This document shows, piece after piece, positions 10,357 to 39,510 of a stretch of DNA of 64,000 bases. Position numbers and translations under genes: made by a program. How positions within the stretch are numbered: the first letter of the stretch is position 1; each line of letters opens with the position of its first letter. Under the pieces are notes generated by a model. That model ran no database searches and had not been told where the DNA came from. It worked only from the letters and a program-made list of their open reading frames with translations. The DNA comes from Thermithiobacillus tepidarius DSM 3134. Its GTDB lineage: Bacteria; Pseudomonadota; Gammaproteobacteria; Acidithiobacillales; Thermithiobacillaceae. The stretch spans positions 1 to 64,000 of the forward strand of contig NZ_KE384096.1 in NCBI RefSeq assembly GCF_000423825.1, read 5' to 3'.

Positions 10357-10872
10357 ATGGATGAGATGGACTCTCCGATGGACTCCTCCGGGGGCGGCGG
10401 ACAAAGCCCGCCCATGACGCCCGCCGAGGCCAGGCAGCGCGCCCTGGGCTGGCTGGCGCGGCGTGAGCACAGCGAGCAGGAGCTGCGCCGCAAGCTGGCC
10501 CGCCTGGACTGCCCGGCGCCGGTGATCGACGCCGTGGCGGCCGAACTGGTGGCCGAGGGCTTGCTGAGTGACGAACGCTTCGCCGAGATGCTGTCCCGCA
10601 CGCGCTTCGGGCGCGGCTTCGGCCCGGCGCGGGTGCGGGCCGAGCTGCGCCAGAAGGGCGTGGACGAGGATACCATCGCCGCCTATGCCAAGCTCGGCCA
10701 GGCTCAGATGCTGCGCCAGGCCCGTGAGGCCCTGAAGAAGCGCTTCGGCAGCCTGCCGGCGCGCGACCTCAAAGGCCGCGCCCAGCGCGCCCGCTTCCTG
10801 GCCTACAAGGGCTTTCCCGCGGACGTGATCTTCCGGGTGCTGGATGCCGATGATGGGGAGGGCTGCGACTAG
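10357..10872 (+). CDS. recX: RecX, modulator of RecA
   Basis: RecX binds in the groove of RecA filaments and limits their growth. The 171-residue product has the three tandem RecX helical repeats: ALGWLARREHSEQELRRKLA, LLSDERFAEMLSRTRFGRGFGPARVRAELRQKG and the last one ending in FLAYKGFPADVIFRVL. The ATG at 10357 has GAGGTC upstream. ATG codons at 10366, 10378 and 10414 are possible alternatives, because the first 19 residues are not conserved in type. It lies 176 bases after recA, beyond the terminator, so it may rely on readthrough or its own promoter. Confidence 0.93.
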   Translation: MDEMDSPMDSSGGGGQSPPMTPAEARQRALGWLARREHSEQELRRKLARLDCPAPVIDAVAAELVAEGLLSDERFAEMLSRTRFGRGFGPARVRAELRQKGVDEDTIAAYAKLGQAQMLRQAREALKKRFGSLPARDLKGRAQRARFLAYKGFPADVIFRVLDADDGEGCD

Positions 10873-10917
10873 CGCCCCTTATCGCCTGATCGCCTGCCTG
10901 GCCAGCTGCGACGCAAG

Positions 10918-10986
10918 TGTAGGAGCGAGCTTGCTCGCGATCACGGTGCCGATAGTGGCAAGATCGCGAGCAAGCTCGCTCCTACA
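10918..10986. repeat. REP palindrome pair
   Basis: GTAGGAGCGAGCTTGCTCGC at 10919-10938 and its reverse complement ending at 10985 face each other across 19 bases. Together they could fold into one long stem of about 25 base pairs. This is the classic head-to-tail REP arrangement, in the recX-alaS gap. The same unit recurs at about 14 other sites in the window. Confidence 0.9.
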
Positions 10987-11066
10987 GTCCCGTGGACCCG
11001 CCCGGTCCGGCCCACCCCTGTCCTTGCTCCCGCCAATCCAGTAAGATGCGCACGGGCTGCCGCCCG

Positions 11067-11107
11067 TTGGCAAGCGTTGCCAAATTTAGAGCCAGTTCAT
11101 AAACTGG
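11067..11107 (+). other. Two hairpins in the alaS leader
   Basis: TTGGCAA-GCG-TTGCCAA at 11067-11083 is a perfect seven-base-pair hairpin followed by ATTT, a weak terminator-like element for recX. GAGCCAGTT-CATA-AACTGGTTC at 11089-11110 is a second stem in the region just before alaS. They could be part of a translational control region, but no known element is recognised. Confidence 0.4.
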
Positions 11108-11154
11108 TTCATTGCCCGAAAATTACCGACCGCAACCGCTACCAGAGTCTACCT

Positions 11155-13788
<2,634 letters not shown>

Positions 13789-32657: not shown

Positions 32658-32728
32658 GCCGCCAACGCCTCGTTCAGTTCTTCAATGATCGTATTCAGTT
32701 TGTCGCCGAAATCCTGATACATGGTCAT
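32654..32728 (-). CDS. Micro-ORF repeating the hsdR 3' end, coupled to hsdS
   Basis: This 24-codon frame reads MTMYQDFGDKLNTIIEELNE then ALAA and stop. From FGDKLN onward it is almost the same as the last 19 residues of HsdR, FGDKLNTIIEELNETLAA. ATGA junctions join it to the RhuM-Fic stop upstream and to the hsdS start downstream. It looks like a duplicate of the hsdR tail left when the RhuM-Fic gene entered the hsdR-hsdS junction. It may serve as a translational coupler. A separate peptide function is not suggested. Confidence 0.6.
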   Translation of the reverse strand: MTMYQDFGDKLNTIIEELNEALAA

Positions 32729-33729
32729 TCGCCGCCATCCTGGAGCAGGTTCAGGATCAACCGGATCAGCAATTCTTTGTGCGCTGGGTCGCTCTCGGCG
32801 ACCAGCAGCGCGACGGCGACCAAGGCATTGTTGGCGAAGCGCGGTGTGCCGTCGGGCTTGATCGACAGGCCGTTGCGATCGAGGTAGAGCAGAAACAGGA
32901 AGCTGCCGATGCGCTTGTTGCCGTCGGAAAACGGGTGATCCTTGATAATGAAATACAGCAGATGCGCGGCGCGTGTCTCCACGCTTGGGTAGAGCGCTTC
33001 GCCGCCGAATGTTTGCTCGATGGAACCCAGGATGCCATCCAGTGCGCTACCCCGCTCCTGACCGAAGAGCGCCGTGGCCTCGCCTTTCGCCATCAAGGCT
33101 TGCTTGAGCGCCGAAATCGCCCGGCGACTCTCATCCGATGACAGGCCGGCGACGGGGCGGGTCGGATGCACCGGCGACTCGGGCAGGCGGTTCTCGTCGT
33201 ACTGCAACAGCAAGCGCCAGGAACGGGCGTAGCGCGTGACCACGTCCAGCACGGCCCGGCCCTGGTAGTTGACCAGCTCGTGGGCGGACAGCGTTCGCGC
33301 CAGCAGGCGCACGGCCTCCTCCATTTCGGTGAGACCTTTCTCCCGCAGGCGGCGTTCGTTGAGGGTGTAGCCCTGGACCAGATGGTCTCGCAATGTGCGG
33401 GTGGCCCAGATGCGGAATTGGGTGCCGCGAAGAGATTTGACGCGGTAGCCAACCGAGATGATGACATCCAGGCTGTAATAGATGACGGGCTTGTCGGAAA
33501 AAGGAATATGCATTTTTTGCATATTGCCTTCGGTCGGCAACTCGCCTTCAGCGAATACGTTGCGCACGTGCCTGGAAATGACCGACTGGTCGCGTCCAAA
33601 AAGCTCGACCATCTGCGCCTGTGTCAGCCAGACGGTTTCTCGCTCCAAGTGCACGTCCAGGAGAATCTGGCCGTCGGGTGTCTGGAACAGGGCGATCTCG
33701 CCGCCGGGCAATGGGTTGCTCTGTTTCAT
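32725..33729 (-). CDS. RhuM-family protein with C-terminal Fic/Doc domain
   Basis: The 334-residue product starts MKQSNPLPGGEIALFQTPDG at the ATG at 33729, which shares an ATGA junction with the hsdR stop. Residues about 10-200 are RhuM-like (ETVWLTQAQMVELFGRDQSV, RGTQFRIWATRTLRDHLVQGY). The C-terminal 130 residues carry HPFSDGNKRIGSFLFLLYL, a Fic/Doc-type motif. The final arginine of the canonical HxFx(D/E)GNxRxxR is replaced by Ser. Fic domains transfer AMP or phosphate to proteins. Such genes often sit inside type I restriction operons. Confidence 0.85.
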   Translation of the reverse strand: MKQSNPLPGGEIALFQTPDGQILLDVHLERETVWLTQAQMVELFGRDQSVISRHVRNVFAEGELPTEGNMQKMHIPFSDKPVIYYSLDVIISVGYRVKSLRGTQFRIWATRTLRDHLVQGYTLNERRLREKGLTEMEEAVRLLARTLSAHELVNYQGRAVLDVVTRYARSWRLLLQYDENRLPESPVHPTRPVAGLSSDESRRAISALKQALMAKGEATALFGQERGSALDGILGSIEQTFGGEALYPSVETRAAHLLYFIIKDHPFSDGNKRIGSFLFLLYLDRNGLSIKPDGTPRFANNALVAVALLVAESDPAHKELLIRLILNLLQDGGE

Positions 33730-36494
33730 GCGGCCAAGGTTTCGTTCAATTCTTCGATGATTGTATTCAGCTTGTCGCCGAACAGTTGATGTACTTTGCC
33801 GAGGCCGCCGTGTTGTGAGAACGGCGCGTACTCGAAGTCGTCCGACTCGATACCCAAATTGGCGGCGATGTGGTCGCGGATCATTTCCAGCCAGCGGATT
33901 TGTTCTCTGGTGAACTGTTTGCCCGCGCTTTCCTGGCTCGCCAGCCACACCTGGAAATTGGCCGCGACGCGCTCGGGGAAAGGGATGAGTTCATTGTCCT
34001 GGTGCATGGCGAAGCGCACCAGCGAGACGAGGTCGGTCAGGATGCGGCGGCCAGCGGCGCCCTTGACCCTGGACTTCTCCAGCGCGGCGTAGGCCTGCCA
34101 GAGCTGAGATTCGTTCCAGAGATAGGGTGGCTTTTCGATGGCGCTGGCGAGCTCCTGCACTGCCGCGAAGCTGAGGCGCTGCTTGTAGGGGCGGCTGTAG
34201 AGCACCTGCAGGGCGGTGATTTCGTCTTTGTGCTCGGCGATGAACTGCTCGAAGGATTGGACCATGCCCTTGGCGCGGTCGAGGGCATCTTGGGAGAAGC
34301 CGGCTTCGAGGAGTTCATCTGCGCTGATGATGTCGATGACGACTTCGTTTTTCTTCTTGATGGTGTCGATGGTTTCGCGCAGCTTGGGGTCGTGAAAGGG
34401 CTTGACGGCCTCCCGCACCCGCTCGTCCCGGTTGGGGGCATCGGGGTCGAGGGCGGCGATGATGCGGTGGCCGAGCTCTCGGACGCCGAACCCGCCGGTA
34501 ATCTCGCGGATCTTCTGGTCGTCCTCGGCGCTCATGCGGTGTTCCATGCGCGCCAGCCGCCCGGCCAGGGACGAGAGCACGTCGTCTTCAGTGTTGCCGA
34601 AGGCCACGGCCTGCATGAGTTTTTCGAAGCTGACGGTGGGCTTCTGCTCCATGGGGCGGGAGTCGGTCTTGTCCTGCCCGCAGACGCCGACGGCATCGAC
34701 GATGACGAAGTGGTCCTTGGCGCGGGCGTCGGGGGTGACGCTTTGCAGGTCGTCGGGCTTGATGACGCGCACGCCGCGGCCTTTCATCTGCTCGAAGAAG
34801 GCGCGGGATTTGACGGCGCGCATGAACATGACGACTTCCACCGCCTTGATGTCGGTGCCGGTGGCGATCATGTCCACGGTGACGGCGACCCTGGGCATGG
34901 GGCTGGTGCGGAATTCGTTGATGAGGTCCTTGGGCTTGGCGCCGGTGGTGCGGTAGGTGATCTTCTGGGCGAAGTCGTTGCCCTTGCCGAACTCCTCGCG
35001 CACGATCTCGACGATGTTCTCGGCGTGGGCGTCGTCCTTGGCGAAGATGAGGGTCTTGGGCACCCACTCGCGGCCGGGGAAGATTTCGGTGAAGAGCTTG
35101 TCGCGGTAGGTCTGGATGATTTTGCGGATCTGGTCCGGGGCGACCACGTCGCGGTCGAGCTGGTTGGGGTCGTAGCTGAAATCGTCGTCGAGCTGTTCCC
35201 AGCGCTTCTTGCGGGTGTCGCGCTCCATGACCTGCACGGCGTAGCCGGACTCCACCTTGGAGCCCTGTTCGGTGATGGCGGTGCGGATGCGGTAGACGTC
35301 GTAGTTGACGTTGACGCCGTCGGCCACGGCCATCTCGTGATTGTATTCCATCACCAGGTTCTGGTTGAAGAAGCCGAAGGTCTGCTTGCTGGGCGTGGCG
35401 GTGAGGCCGATGAGGTAGGCGTCGAAGTACTCCAGCACTTGGGCCCAGAGATTGTAGATGGAGCGGTGGCATTCGTCGGTGACGATGATGTCGAAGGTTT
35501 CGATCGGTATCGCCGGGTTGTATTCGATGGGTTCGGGCTGCTTGAACAGGCCGCCGAGCTGGTCCACCGATTCTTCTTCCAGCTCTTCGGGCAGGTCACG
35601 GCCCTTGAGCATGGAGTACATGCGCTGGATGGTGCAGATGCAGACACGGGCGGTGGTGTCGAGCGTGTTGCTGCTCAGGCGCTGGACGATGTACTCCTCG
35701 GTGAATTTGAAGTTGTTGTAGGGCGAGGCGTATTGCTGGAATTCCTTGAGCGTCTGGTCGCCGAGGTTGCCGCGGTCCACGAGAAACAGCACGCGCCGGG
35801 CACCGGCGAACTTGATGAGCCGGTAGATGAATGAGATGGCGGTGAAGGTCTTGCCCGAGCCGGTGGCCATCTGGATGAGGGCGCGGGGGCGGTTTTCCCT
35901 GAGCGACCGTTCCAGATTCTGGATGGCCTGGATCTGGGCGGGCCAGAGGCCTTCTGCCTTGAGCGGCGGCATGCGGTTGAGGCGGGCAAGGAAGCTGCCC
36001 TGCTCGGCATAGGCCGGCGGAGGCGCTTCCGCGGCCTGGGGCAGCGCGGCATCGGAAGCCGGCCCGCGCCCGCAAGCGCCGGATTCCAGCCACGCCGCCA
36101 GGGTGTCGGGCCGGTGAAAGGCGAAGACCGGGCGCGAGCGCGGCTCGGGGTCGAGGCCATTGGTGAAGCGGGTTTCGACGCCGGTGGACTGGTAAGAAAA
36201 GGGCAGGGGAGCGGCCCAGCGCGGCAGCCCGGCGGGCAGGCCCAGGGTGTACTTGGCGGCCTGGGTTTCCACGCCGGTGAGGGTGACGCCCTTTTTCTTG
36301 GCCTCGATGACCCCGGCGGCCTTGCCGTCCACGTAGAGCAGATAGTCGGCGAAGCCGTGGCCCGGCAGGGGGAATTCGCGGATGGCAACGCCGCGGCCGG
36401 CGAAGATGTTGGCCGCATTGGCGTCCTGCACGGCCCAGCCTGCCTGGGCAAGCAGCCGGTCGATAAGCTCCCTGGCTTCCTGTTCTTTTGACAT
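33726..36494 (-). CDS. hsdR: Type I restriction endonuclease subunit HsdR
   Basis: HsdR is the translocating and cutting subunit. The 922-residue product has an N-terminal nuclease domain (FADYLLYVDGKAAGVIEAKK, PD-(D/E)xK), Walker A MATGSGKTFTAIS, DECH in VTDECHRSIYNLW, SAT-like TATPSKQTF, helicase motif VTVDMIATGTDIKAVE and a helical C-terminal domain. It is apparently intact. The ATG at 36494 (MSKEQEARELIDRLL) is favoured over the frame to 36530. It needs HsdM and HsdS, both broken here, to be active. It is the first gene of the hsdR-rhuM-hsdS run. Confidence 0.93.
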   Translation of the reverse strand: MSKEQEARELIDRLLAQAGWAVQDANAANIFAGRGVAIREFPLPGHGFADYLLYVDGKAAGVIEAKKKGVTLTGVETQAAKYTLGLPAGLPRWAAPLPFSYQSTGVETRFTNGLDPEPRSRPVFAFHRPDTLAAWLESGACGRGPASDAALPQAAEAPPPAYAEQGSFLARLNRMPPLKAEGLWPAQIQAIQNLERSLRENRPRALIQMATGSGKTFTAISFIYRLIKFAGARRVLFLVDRGNLGDQTLKEFQQYASPYNNFKFTEEYIVQRLSSNTLDTTARVCICTIQRMYSMLKGRDLPEELEEESVDQLGGLFKQPEPIEYNPAIPIETFDIIVTDECHRSIYNLWAQVLEYFDAYLIGLTATPSKQTFGFFNQNLVMEYNHEMAVADGVNVNYDVYRIRTAITEQGSKVESGYAVQVMERDTRKKRWEQLDDDFSYDPNQLDRDVVAPDQIRKIIQTYRDKLFTEIFPGREWVPKTLIFAKDDAHAENIVEIVREEFGKGNDFAQKITYRTTGAKPKDLINEFRTSPMPRVAVTVDMIATGTDIKAVEVVMFMRAVKSRAFFEQMKGRGVRVIKPDDLQSVTPDARAKDHFVIVDAVGVCGQDKTDSRPMEQKPTVSFEKLMQAVAFGNTEDDVLSSLAGRLARMEHRMSAEDDQKIREITGGFGVRELGHRIIAALDPDAPNRDERVREAVKPFHDPKLRETIDTIKKKNEVVIDIISADELLEAGFSQDALDRAKGMVQSFEQFIAEHKDEITALQVLYSRPYKQRLSFAAVQELASAIEKPPYLWNESQLWQAYAALEKSRVKGAAGRRILTDLVSLVRFAMHQDNELIPFPERVAANFQVWLASQESAGKQFTREQIRWLEMIRDHIAANLGIESDDFEYAPFSQHGGLGKVHQLFGDKLNTIIEELNETLAA

Positions 36495-36572
36495 TATCCA
36501 GCATCCGCAACCTGTGGGGAATAATAGCACAGGATGGCCGGAATGCAGGCTGGCCGGGCATGGCCTTTCAGG

Positions 36573-37286: not shown

Positions 37287-37575
37287 GGGGCTTCCTCCAC
37301 GGGTGTTGTAGTGAACAGGACCGTGCACTCGCAAGCTGCTGTTTTGGCTGTGTTTTGTTGGGCAGCATACTATGGAGTGTAGACGCCGGCAGGGGCTTGG
37401 CTATGCGCCGATGGTCGTAGCATGGGACCTTGGGCGCTGGATTTCTCGGGACGGGTCTTTTGGGCGCTTTCGGCGCTTGCCGGCTTCTGGTAAGTAGATG
37501 AAGTATTGGCCCTCACCCGGCCCGCGCCCGGCGGGAGCCGGGGAAAGCCTCTGCCGCTTGCCCAACAGGTGCTTG

Positions 37576-39279
37576 ATGCTCATCTACCGCGAAGCGGATC
37601 GCCCGGGGCGGCCCGCCCTCTTGCTGGCGCAACTGGCCGACCGGCTGCAACGGTTGGCCGGGGGCGGGGCGTGTCCGCATGCCGCGCTGGTGGAACTGCT
37701 TATCGACTTCGGCGAGCTGGAGTCGGCGGTGGCCGATGCCGCGTGTCCGGCCGAGGACGAGCTGCTGCCGCTGCTGGATGGCTTCGGGCAGCTCAGCGTG
37801 ATGCTGGGGCGGCTGTTCTGGCAATCGTGGCGGCAGGGGCTGGACGGCGCCGCGCTCGCGCCGCTGGCACCGGCGCTGGAGCGGCTGGGCGCGGCGGCGC
37901 TGCCGGAGGCGGTGAGGCTGCGCGTGCCTGAGGGCTACGCCTACTATGCGCTCTATCCGGAGACCTACCTGGAGGCGGCGGAGCAGCTTCTCGCCGAGCT
38001 GCGCCCGCAGCGGGTGGTGTGCCTGGGCCTGCGCAGCATCGGCAGCAGCCTGTCGGCGGTGGTGGCGGGCACGCTGGCCATGCACGGCTGCCCGGTGCGG
38101 CGCCACACCCTGCGGCCGCACGGGCCGCCCTTCGAGCGCCGGCCCGTGCCGGGGCCGAAGCTGGCGGCGGCGCTGCGCGACTGGGCGGATGCCTATTTCC
38201 TGGTGGTGGACGAGGGGCCGGGGCTGAGCGGCTCGTCCCTGTGCGGCACGGCGGCGGCGCTGACGGCACTCGGGGTGCCGGAGGCGCGCATCGCTTTCCT
38301 GCCGAGCTGGGCGCCCGAAAGCCTGCCCTTTGCTTCGGCGGACACCCGGGCGCGCTGGCCGCGGCACCGGAAGTGGCTGGGGTCTTTCGAGGACCTGTGG
38401 CTGCGCAGCGGGCGTCTGGGGACGGCGCTGCGCGATCTCGGCGGCGGCGGCTGGCGCGCCGTGTTGTACGAAAACGAGGCGGCGCAGCCGGCGGTGCAGC
38501 CGCAGCACGAGCGGCGCAAGTATCTGGGAGCGGAGGGCGGTGTGCTGCTCAAGTTCGCCGGCCTGGGCCGCTACGGGGCGGCGAAGCGCGAGCTGGCGGA
38601 GCGGCTGGCGGCGGCCGGCTTCGCGCCGCCCGTGCAGGATCTGCGCGACGGCTTTCTGGTGTCGGACTTCGTGCCCGGCCGGCCGCTGGCGGCCGCGGAT
38701 CTGGACAGCGAGCTGCTCAATGCGGCGCTGCGCTACCTGGACTTTCGCCGGCGCGCGCTGCCCGCCGCGCGCACGGTGGACTTCGAGGCACTTTGCGAGA
38801 TGATCTCGGTGAACGCGGCCGAAGGGCTGGGGGCGGACTGGCGGGCGCGGCTGGCGCCCCTGGCGCGCTATCGCAGGCAGGTGGAAGCGGCGGCGCCGGT
38901 GGCCGTGGACGGGCGCATGCTGCCGCACGAGTGGCTGCGCACGGCGCGCGGCTATCTCAAGACCGATGGCGTGGACCACCACGACGACCACTTCCTGCCG
39001 GGCGCCCAGGACATCGCCTGGGATGTGGCGGGCTTCGCCGTGGAGTTCGGGCTCGGCGAGCCCGTGCTGCGGGATTTCGTGCAGCAGCTCGCGGCGCGGG
39101 CCGGGGATGGCGCCCTGGCGGCGCGCCTGCCGTTCTACCGGGTGGCCTACCTGGCCTTTCGCCTGGGCTATGCGCAGATGGCGGCCGGGGCGCTGGGCGG
39201 GACGCCGGATGGAGCGCGCATGGCGGCGTTGGCGCGGCGCTACGGGGGGCTGCTCCGGCAGGCCGTCGCCCGCCTGTGA
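37576..39279 (+). CDS. Phosphoribosyltransferase fused to a kinase-like domain
   Basis: The 567-residue product has an N-terminal helical part. A phosphoribosyltransferase-like segment with the PRPP loop FLVVDEGPGLSGSSLCGTAA lies at about residues 205-224. A C-terminal half (about 300-560) resembles aminoglycoside/choline kinase folds, with LKFAGLGRYG... and HHDDHFLPGAQDIAWDVAGF in place of the catalytic loop. The combination suggests a nucleotide- or sugar-modifying enzyme, but the substrate is unknown and I know no named family. The start is uncertain: ATG at 37576, TTG at 37573 or an ATG at 37498. No operon partner is apparent. Confidence 0.6.
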   Translation: MLIYREADRPGRPALLLAQLADRLQRLAGGGACPHAALVELLIDFGELESAVADAACPAEDELLPLLDGFGQLSVMLGRLFWQSWRQGLDGAALAPLAPALERLGAAALPEAVRLRVPEGYAYYALYPETYLEAAEQLLAELRPQRVVCLGLRSIGSSLSAVVAGTLAMHGCPVRRHTLRPHGPPFERRPVPGPKLAAALRDWADAYFLVVDEGPGLSGSSLCGTAAALTALGVPEARIAFLPSWAPESLPFASADTRARWPRHRKWLGSFEDLWLRSGRLGTALRDLGGGGWRAVLYENEAAQPAVQPQHERRKYLGAEGGVLLKFAGLGRYGAAKRELAERLAAAGFAPPVQDLRDGFLVSDFVPGRPLAAADLDSELLNAALRYLDFRRRALPAARTVDFEALCEMISVNAAEGLGADWRARLAPLARYRRQVEAAAPVAVDGRMLPHEWLRTARGYLKTDGVDHHDDHFLPGAQDIAWDVAGFAVEFGLGEPVLRDFVQQLAARAGDGALAARLPFYRVAYLAFRLGYAQMAAGALGGTPDGARMAALARRYGGLLRQAVARL

Positions 39280-39328: not shown

Positions 39329-39510
39329 GATCGCGGGCAAGCCCGCTCCTACACCCAAACGCCACATTCCGTTGCAGGGACGGCCATGCAGCGGGTGGCC
39401 GAGCTGAACAAGCCCGCTCGTCACCCAAACGCCGCATCCCGTTGTAGGAGCGAGCTTGCTCGCGATTTTGCCGCCATCGGCACCGTGATTACGGGCAAAT
39501 CCGCTCCTGC
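39329..39510. repeat. REP cluster with a 71-base tandem repeat
   Basis: REP units occur at 39329-39352, 39444-39466 and, decayed, at 39487-39510. AAGCCCGCTCCTACACCCAA followed by ACGCCACATTCCGTTGCAGG at 39339 recurs as AAGCCCGCTCGTCACCCAAA etc. from 39410, a period of about 71 bases. This gap of 258 bases holds no gene. Confidence 0.8.

Follow-up and report, generated by a model that had tools for sequence, protein, structure and literature searches.

A widespread and unnamed bacterial fusion of a phosphoribosyltransferase fold with a choline-kinase/APH fold, linked to a glycan-pathway gene set and present in Thermithiobacillus tepidarius

The gene considered here occupies positions 37576-39279 on the forward strand of the window, i.e. 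the whole stretch of 64,000 nucleotides of Thermithiobacillus tepidarius DSM 3134 that was analysed. A 593-residue reading from an alternative upstream ATG at 37498 is unlikely, judging from the aligned sequences, because the relatives start at the same methionine as the shorter version: the start equivalent to 37576 is a methionine in 78 of 80 aligned relatives, whose starts were chosen by a script near that position. The G+C content of the gene (74.8%, and 91% at third positions, compared with 67.2% for the window) is as expected for a coding gene of this genome. Its neighbours in the window encode rhodanese-like, ankyrin-repeat, RF-1-domain, SelR/MsrB and Rsd/AlgQ proteins. A short REP-like palindromic repeat (GCGGGCAAGCCCGCTCCTAC and variants), often arranged as facing pairs, occurs in 15 copies in the window against 0.01 expected, at 39333-39352, at 39444-39463 and in 13 more places, and one facing pair lies directly downstream of the gene. 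On the reverse strand, 32725-33948 encodes what we take, from its translation, to be a RhuM-like protein with a Fic-type end, and the adjoining gene at 33726-36530 presumably encodes, again going by its translation, a type I restriction-like helicase subunit. The features of the gene and its product are the following (all on the forward strand).

37576..39279, +, fusion-protein gene; open frame intact, 567 amino acids, stop codon included
37612..37890, +, N-terminal helical bundle, residues 13-105, before the phosphoribosyltransferase core (secondary structure of the model)
37939..38379, +, type I phosphoribosyltransferase-fold core, residues 122-268 (model; best match PyrR)
38026..38043, +, GLRSIG, residues 151-156, at the pyrophosphate-loop position following core strand 1 (putative role, from fold position)
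38113..38139, +, RPxGxPFxR, residues 180-188, following core strand 2 (putative role)
38209..38238, +, predicted PRPP-binding loop DEGPGLSGSS, residues 212-221, after strand 207-211 (conservation and model)
38383..39276, +, choline-kinase/APH-fold domain, residues 270-567 (fold match and LicA profile match)
38440..38457, +, glycine-rich loop GGGGWR, residues 289-294 (W293 and R294 in 80/80 rows, G291 in 79/80)
38518..38553, +, predicted ATP-binding strand pair, K315 to K326, with KF.G like the KFFG of LicA (LicA alignment)
38908..38931, +, predicted catalytic loop DGRMLPHE, residues 445-452 (LicA alignment)
38959..38979, +, KTDxxDH, residues 462-468 (K462, D464 and H468 in 80/80 rows)
39019..39024, +, WD, residues 482-483, counterpart of the WDLA stretch in LicA (LicA alignment; D483 in 80/80 rows)

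The full-length protein was modelled with high confidence (mean pLDDT 95.5, pTM 0.94). Because the kinase half took up the first fold search, the N-terminal 268 residues were also modelled separately (model m9c2d82fd86f8, pLDDT 95.2). The best fold match of residues 122-268 is PyrR (Z 9.8, rmsd 2.8 Å over 131 aligned residues), in keeping with a phosphoribosyltransferase (PRTase) fold. The best 50 rows for this segment comprise 40 titled PRTase or PyrR, two with generic titles, two PRPP synthetases and six periplasmic binding proteins; since the last reach Z 8.2-8.8, not far from the 9.8 of the top PRTase, the fold match taken alone is moderate, and what decides the assignment is the PRPP-loop motif together with the two conserved loops that precede it. 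The PRPP loop of PRTases usually reads DDxxxTG, that is, a pair of acidic residues with a (T/S)G(x)(T/S) turn after them. The corresponding stretch here, VDEGPGLSGSS (residues 211-221), contains DEGPGLSGSS, which fits this motif with a spacing one residue longer than usual. D212, E213, S218 and G219 are invariant over the 80 aligned rows, and so are G151, R153 and G156 of the first conserved loop, R180 and R188 of the second, and E119. No Pfam family of any kind was recovered for the window protein at E-values up to 1, no PRTase is among the 12 Pfam families listed for the 80 members, and a profile of the N-terminal half searched against the PDB found no PRTase by sequence, so the assignment is carried by the fold and the conserved residues. 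The PRTase families of the Ter system (PRTase_2 and TRSP) were considered and dropped, the window protein having no match to them.

The C-terminal half (residues 272-567) superimposes on human choline kinase beta with Z 18.8 and rmsd 3.8 Å over 256 aligned residues, the kinase domain is matched by Foldseek at E 3.8e-6, and the 80-row profile matches the pneumococcal choline kinase LicA (4r77) at E 9e-4. The protein shares with the LicA/APH family the fold, the catalytic Asp, the ATP-site Lys and the WD.A stretch: K315 is kept in 80/80 rows, at position 326 there are 65 rows with Lys and 15 with Arg, and D445, which aligns with the catalytic Asp of LicA, is invariant (80/80). It differs from that family in a two-residue insertion, in the attached PRTase and in its catalytic loop. 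This loop usually reads HxDxxxxN in such kinases; the form found here, xxDGRMxPxE, is atypical in that it lacks the His and has Glu in place of the Asn (E452, which aligns with the LicA Asn; Glu in 77/80 rows). D464 is likely the metal-binding Asp, as it stands in the model directly after strand 459-462; the LicA alignment puts the gap elsewhere. E490 is a further residue kept in 80/80 rows. The curated APH profile (PF01636) matches one of the 80 members (best E 0.0023), and no curated kinase profile matches the window protein. Going by the aligned sequences, the strict conservation within each half argues that both are catalytic.

The relatives were sought in one genome per species across 84,980 species genomes, and 322 were found in many phyla, far beyond chance; 80 of these were kept for the alignment, the conservation counts and the neighbourhood counts. 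According to record titles, the relatives span 11 phylum-level groups. In the phylogenetic tree, the window copy pairs with Arenibaculum (98% SH-aLRT), and the copy of G001, the only other genome of the T. tepidarius family found, joins them next; this area of the tree, which includes Nitrospirota, Acidobacteriota, Chloroflexota and others, lies outside the main alphaproteobacterial branch. Within the order and class of T. tepidarius (57 and 369 genomes, respectively), relatives occur only in its own genome (G000) and in G001. Matches were also found in 89 plasmid records, mostly from Sinorhizobium (66), and those among the matches listed are annotated as hypothetical protein or not annotated. 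None of the 58 pattern matches in IMG/VR viral contigs is a relative, so there is no sign of a phage gene.

The first-pass annotation of this DNA had proposed a PRPP loop and a kinase-like C-terminal segment in one 567-residue chain, a phosphoribosyltransferase-kinase fusion, and this is borne out by the intact frame, the two confident models and the strict conservation of both halves over 80 rows. Structure prediction of the two halves, suggested there as a check, returned a PRTase fold and a choline-kinase/APH fold. A profile match to a known two-domain family, which it had named as the finding that would tell against it, did not emerge: Pfam, NCBIfam, PADLOC and PHROGs hold no family covering the protein or both halves, and the 80 members scanned singly gave only scattered weak Pfam matches. 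Single-sequence searches with the window protein gave nothing usable in the PDB and no PRTase or kinase family. Among open-licence PMC papers, we found none relevant to a PRTase-kinase fusion, to the gene cluster described below (TIGR04290, TIGR04295, rhizo-twelve and gene names), to the pSymB inositol synthase or to phosphoribosylation with neamine/butirosin. The fusion is a real, widespread and unnamed two-part bacterial enzyme; both folds are known, and no curated family with this pairing was found.

Some insight into the possible role of the fusion comes from its gene neighbourhood. Profiles built from recurrent neighbours were searched against every reading frame in the 80 loci; the names given to the partner families come in part from PGAP annotation. 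At least one of ten core glycan-pathway families occurs near the fusion gene in 62 of the 80 loci; the remaining 18, some of them on short contigs, have none. The most frequent partner is a GH39-like protein (49 loci), followed by glycosyltransferases of several families (c20 in 40, c19 in 28, c8 in 24 and GT4 in 20), a histidine phosphatase (33), the TIGR04290 methyltransferase (30), an epimerase (25), an NTP transferase (22), a Zn-alcohol dehydrogenase (21), the myo-inositol-1-phosphate synthase Ino1 (21), GNAT (19), Gfo/Idh (19), PIG-L (15), an MsbA-like ABC protein (10), PHP (9) and TIGR04295 (9). Directly adjoining the fusion gene (within 300 bp) are Ino1 in 13 loci, a PHP hydrolase in nine, the histidine phosphatase in nine and GNAT in eight. 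The partner content differs by lineage, Ino1 being mostly alphaproteobacterial. In Azospirillum brasilense the genes before the fusion gene encode myo-inositol-1-phosphate synthase, a histidine phosphatase, the methyltransferase TIGR04290 and a ‘beta-xylosidase’; TIGR04295 and glycosyltransferases are encoded close by. On pSymB of Sinorhizobium meliloti it is divergent from genes for myo-inositol-phosphate synthase, histidine phosphatase and a ‘beta-xylosidase’. Near a third plasmid relative, that of A. ramasamyi, none of these partners is annotated.

Several local arrangements are worth recording in their own right. A pair consisting of a Zn-dependent dehydrogenase and a Gfo/Idh oxidoreductase occurs near the fusion gene in nine loci (L056, L063, L064, L066, L070, L072, L078, L086 and L090), which suggests that the same pathway oxidises a sugar or cyclitol. 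The GH39-like partner (L098, 13519-14466 on the reverse strand, and relatives) is unusually conserved across phyla, the T. tepidarius protein being 75% identical to that of an Ignavibacteria bin, and the S. meliloti-type member has, by eye, no obvious signal peptide at its start. In a Manganitrophaceae bin (L013, 1805-5867), genes for nicotinate PRTase and another PRTase are followed on the same strand by the fusion gene. In G001 (L101), a HAD-plus-PRTase gene (10741-11955, reverse strand) overlaps the end of the fusion gene (11946-13649, reverse strand) by ten bases, and contig C36 of T. tepidarius bears pieces related to that gene, the HAD piece having one internal TGA.

In T. tepidarius itself the fusion gene and the partner cluster are located on different contigs, C43 and C3, and the positions of the contig ends put at least some 80 kb between them. 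The cluster (C3:146905-158177) comprises the histidine phosphatase (146905-147504), the GH39-like protein (147521-148465), a TIGR04290 methyltransferase scoring over the cut-off (148501-149172), PIG-L, GT4, GNAT and an NTP transferase, with two glycosyltransferases flanking Ino1 at 154209-158177. Elsewhere on the contig, C3:122151-127697 encodes NAD-dependent epimerases and a TIGR04295 B12 radical SAM protein (E 4e-217). The phosphatase matches alpha-ribazole phosphatase at E 1e-35, below the cut-off of that family; the match to TIGR03848, the best it has, likewise falls slightly short of the cut-off. G001 likewise has the fusion gene (C5) and the cluster (C10) on separate contigs, and its GH39-like protein is 82% identical to that of T. 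tepidarius. Near the window, C43 also encodes an MsbA-like exporter (L100, 34% identical to the partner ABC family), which was not counted, such exporters being general. The first-pass statement that the gene has no obvious operon partners hence holds for the window and fails both for the family, whose neighbourhoods it had recommended checking, and for the bacterium's own genome; nor can its pathway still be called not evident, since both the relatives and contig C3 display its genes.

The association extends beyond physical linkage. In a sample of 398 genomes taken across the phylum, the fusion occurs in eight and TIGR04290 scores over the cut-off in 14, and all eight fall within those 14 (Fisher p 2e-13, kinship ignored). 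Five of eight sampled genomes of the genus g372 have both and three have neither. Among 289 genomes of the class of genome G651, strong fusion matches occur in three (one split in pieces), all of them among the 14 genomes with TIGR04290, and two weak matches to the kinase part lie outside these 14. TIGR04290 genomes lacking the fusion make up 6 of 14 in the phylum sample (by the 80-row profile) and 11 of 14 in the class of G651, for which reason the fusion is not a fixed part of the pathway: it goes with the pathway, and the pathway does not always need it.

Characterised systems offer several points of comparison. The parts of mycothiol and ribostamycin/butirosin biosynthesis include Ino1, a GT4 glycosyltransferase, a PIG-L deacetylase, GNAT and a phosphatase, as well as PRPP-dependent O-ribosylation followed by the phosphatase step; the resemblance of the fusion-linked gene set to these pathways is an analogy by parts only, and the set differs from them in having no identified thiol ligase or 2-deoxystreptamine genes. 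Alpha-ribazole phosphatase takes the 5-phosphate off a ribosyl adduct. It is established for the gPRT/PRP enzymes that a PRPP-dependent glycan phosphoribosyltransferase (gPRT) transfers ribose-5-phosphate to glycans and a HAD phosphoribose phosphatase (PRP) then removes the phosphate (PMC11127046), and the fusion resembles them in its putative PRPP-type donor site, its glycan gene context and the phosphatase in the gene set. Unlike them, it is joined to a kinase rather than a phosphatase and has no HAD domain, and the phosphatase linked to fusion loci is of the histidine type (PF00300), not HAD, except beside the G001 copy. Bcs3, the Hib capsule polymerase, is reported to perform the same two steps on its glycan, and its CriT domain likewise places a PRTase-like core on helical bundles, with PRPP as the donor and a glycan as the acceptor, both of which are only putative for the fusion; Bcs3 differs in being a three-enzyme polymerase with a ribitol-phosphate transferase (PMC10299916). 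No gPRT was matched by sequence, PDB searches gave no match to CriT, and no gPRT or Hib CriT chain is among the fold matches listed. For the kinase half, an amicoumacin-kinase-like domain is reported to phosphorylate the Klebsiella O7 glycan, and the terminator concerned (ORF6) is, by description, similar in fusing an antibiotic-kinase-like domain to another enzyme and in acting on a ribofuranose-containing glycan, its partner domain being a methyltransferase (PMC11231755).

Beyond the computed folds, conservation, gene linkage and co-occurrence, we infer that PRPP and ATP are used, and likewise which acceptor is involved, in what order the steps occur and what product results. The reading we favour, with a confidence somewhat better than even, is that the fusion is a bifunctional PRPP-dependent phosphoribosyltransferase and ATP-dependent kinase of a sugar, cyclitol or glycan in a conserved, uncharacterised oligosaccharide pathway. 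The N-terminal half would take 5-phosphoribose from PRPP and pass it, probably through oxygen, to a sugar, a cyclitol or a growing oligosaccharide; the C-terminal half would phosphorylate the acceptor or the product at the expense of ATP; and the CobC-like histidine phosphatase of the pathway would probably take off the 5-phosphate, as in other ribosylation systems. These steps are proposed because of the gPRT/PRP, Bcs3 and O7 precedents and the alpha-ribazole phosphatase match. The other members of the pathway would be the glycosyltransferases, a sugar nucleotidyltransferase, NAD-dependent epimerases, the GNAT acyltransferase, the PIG-L-type deacetylase, the TIGR04290 methyltransferase, the GH39-like protein, myo-inositol-1-phosphate synthase and the TIGR04295 B12 radical SAM protein. 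In T. tepidarius the fusion gene would have moved away from the cluster, its product working in trans. Candidates for the acceptor are inositol and inositol glycosides, given the linkage to Ino1 (21 of 80 loci, and its presence in the bacterium's own cluster). Di-myo-inositol phosphate synthesis and the bradyrhizose O antigen were considered as well and dropped, as the gene set and the spread do not fit.

Other explanations concern the activity of either half. The PRTase-fold half might be a sensor or regulator binding PRPP or a phosphosugar, in the way PyrR regulates with this fold, leaving only the kinase half catalytic. That the best fold matches are PyrR proteins and that the loop DEGPGLSG is one residue longer than DDxxxTG would suit such a role; R153, R180, R188, D212, E213 and S218-G219 are nevertheless retained in 80/80 rows, as in a catalytic site, and PyrR itself retains weak PRTase activity, and we regard this explanation as quite unlikely. 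Conversely, the kinase half might be a pseudokinase or a binding module holding the acceptor for the PRTase half, as the lost His and the Asn-to-Glu change of its loop could imply. A pseudokinase would, however, be expected to lose some of the residues D445, K462, D464, H468, D483, E490 and the ATP-site Lys/Arg, all kept in 80/80 rows, which makes this possibility decidedly improbable.

The pathway context is open to different readings too. The fusion might serve nucleotide salvage or the synthesis of a nucleotide analogue, the PRTase half making a nucleotide from a base and PRPP and the kinase half phosphorylating it further. A fusion of hypoxanthine-guanine PRTase with adenylate kinase is reported from Zobellia (PMC7326950), and the PRTase genes preceding the fusion gene in L013 and overlapping it in G001 point the same way. 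The recurrent partners are glycan genes, though, and the kinase fold is that of choline kinase/APH rather than of a nucleoside monophosphate kinase, so that we find salvage very improbable; of the two products envisaged by the first-pass annotation, a phosphoribosyl adduct fits and a nucleotide fits poorly. Finally, the gene in T. tepidarius might have no tie to the C3 cluster, having been acquired alone or kept for another role, with co-occurrence reflecting shared ancestry and lifestyle. It does stand by itself in each of the two genomes known for its family, and the co-occurrence figures ignore kinship; yet the nesting holds in two samples and within the genus g372, and the linkage recurs in many phyla, and we give this explanation hardly any credence.

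A bolder form of the favoured reading, a bifunctional phosphoribosyltransferase and kinase, is speculative, and we consider it unlikely as it stands: the family would mark an undescribed cross-phylum pathway for an exported inositol or cyclitol pseudo-oligosaccharide that is ribosylated, methylated and deacetylated, with the fusion phosphoribosylating and phosphorylating the same scaffold. If true, its parts list would lie between those of mycothiol and ribostamycin-type aminoglycosides, and it would combine two activities on one scaffold that are not known in one chain. The analysis connects two orphans, the enzyme and a gene cluster that goes only by the names TIGR04290 and TIGR04295 and whose range extends from megaplasmids of rhizobia to the Nitrospirota and Acidobacteriota. 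Because the fusion gene sits beside the cluster in laboratory species such as Sinorhizobium meliloti and Azospirillum brasilense, the product of the pathway and both reactions are directly testable.
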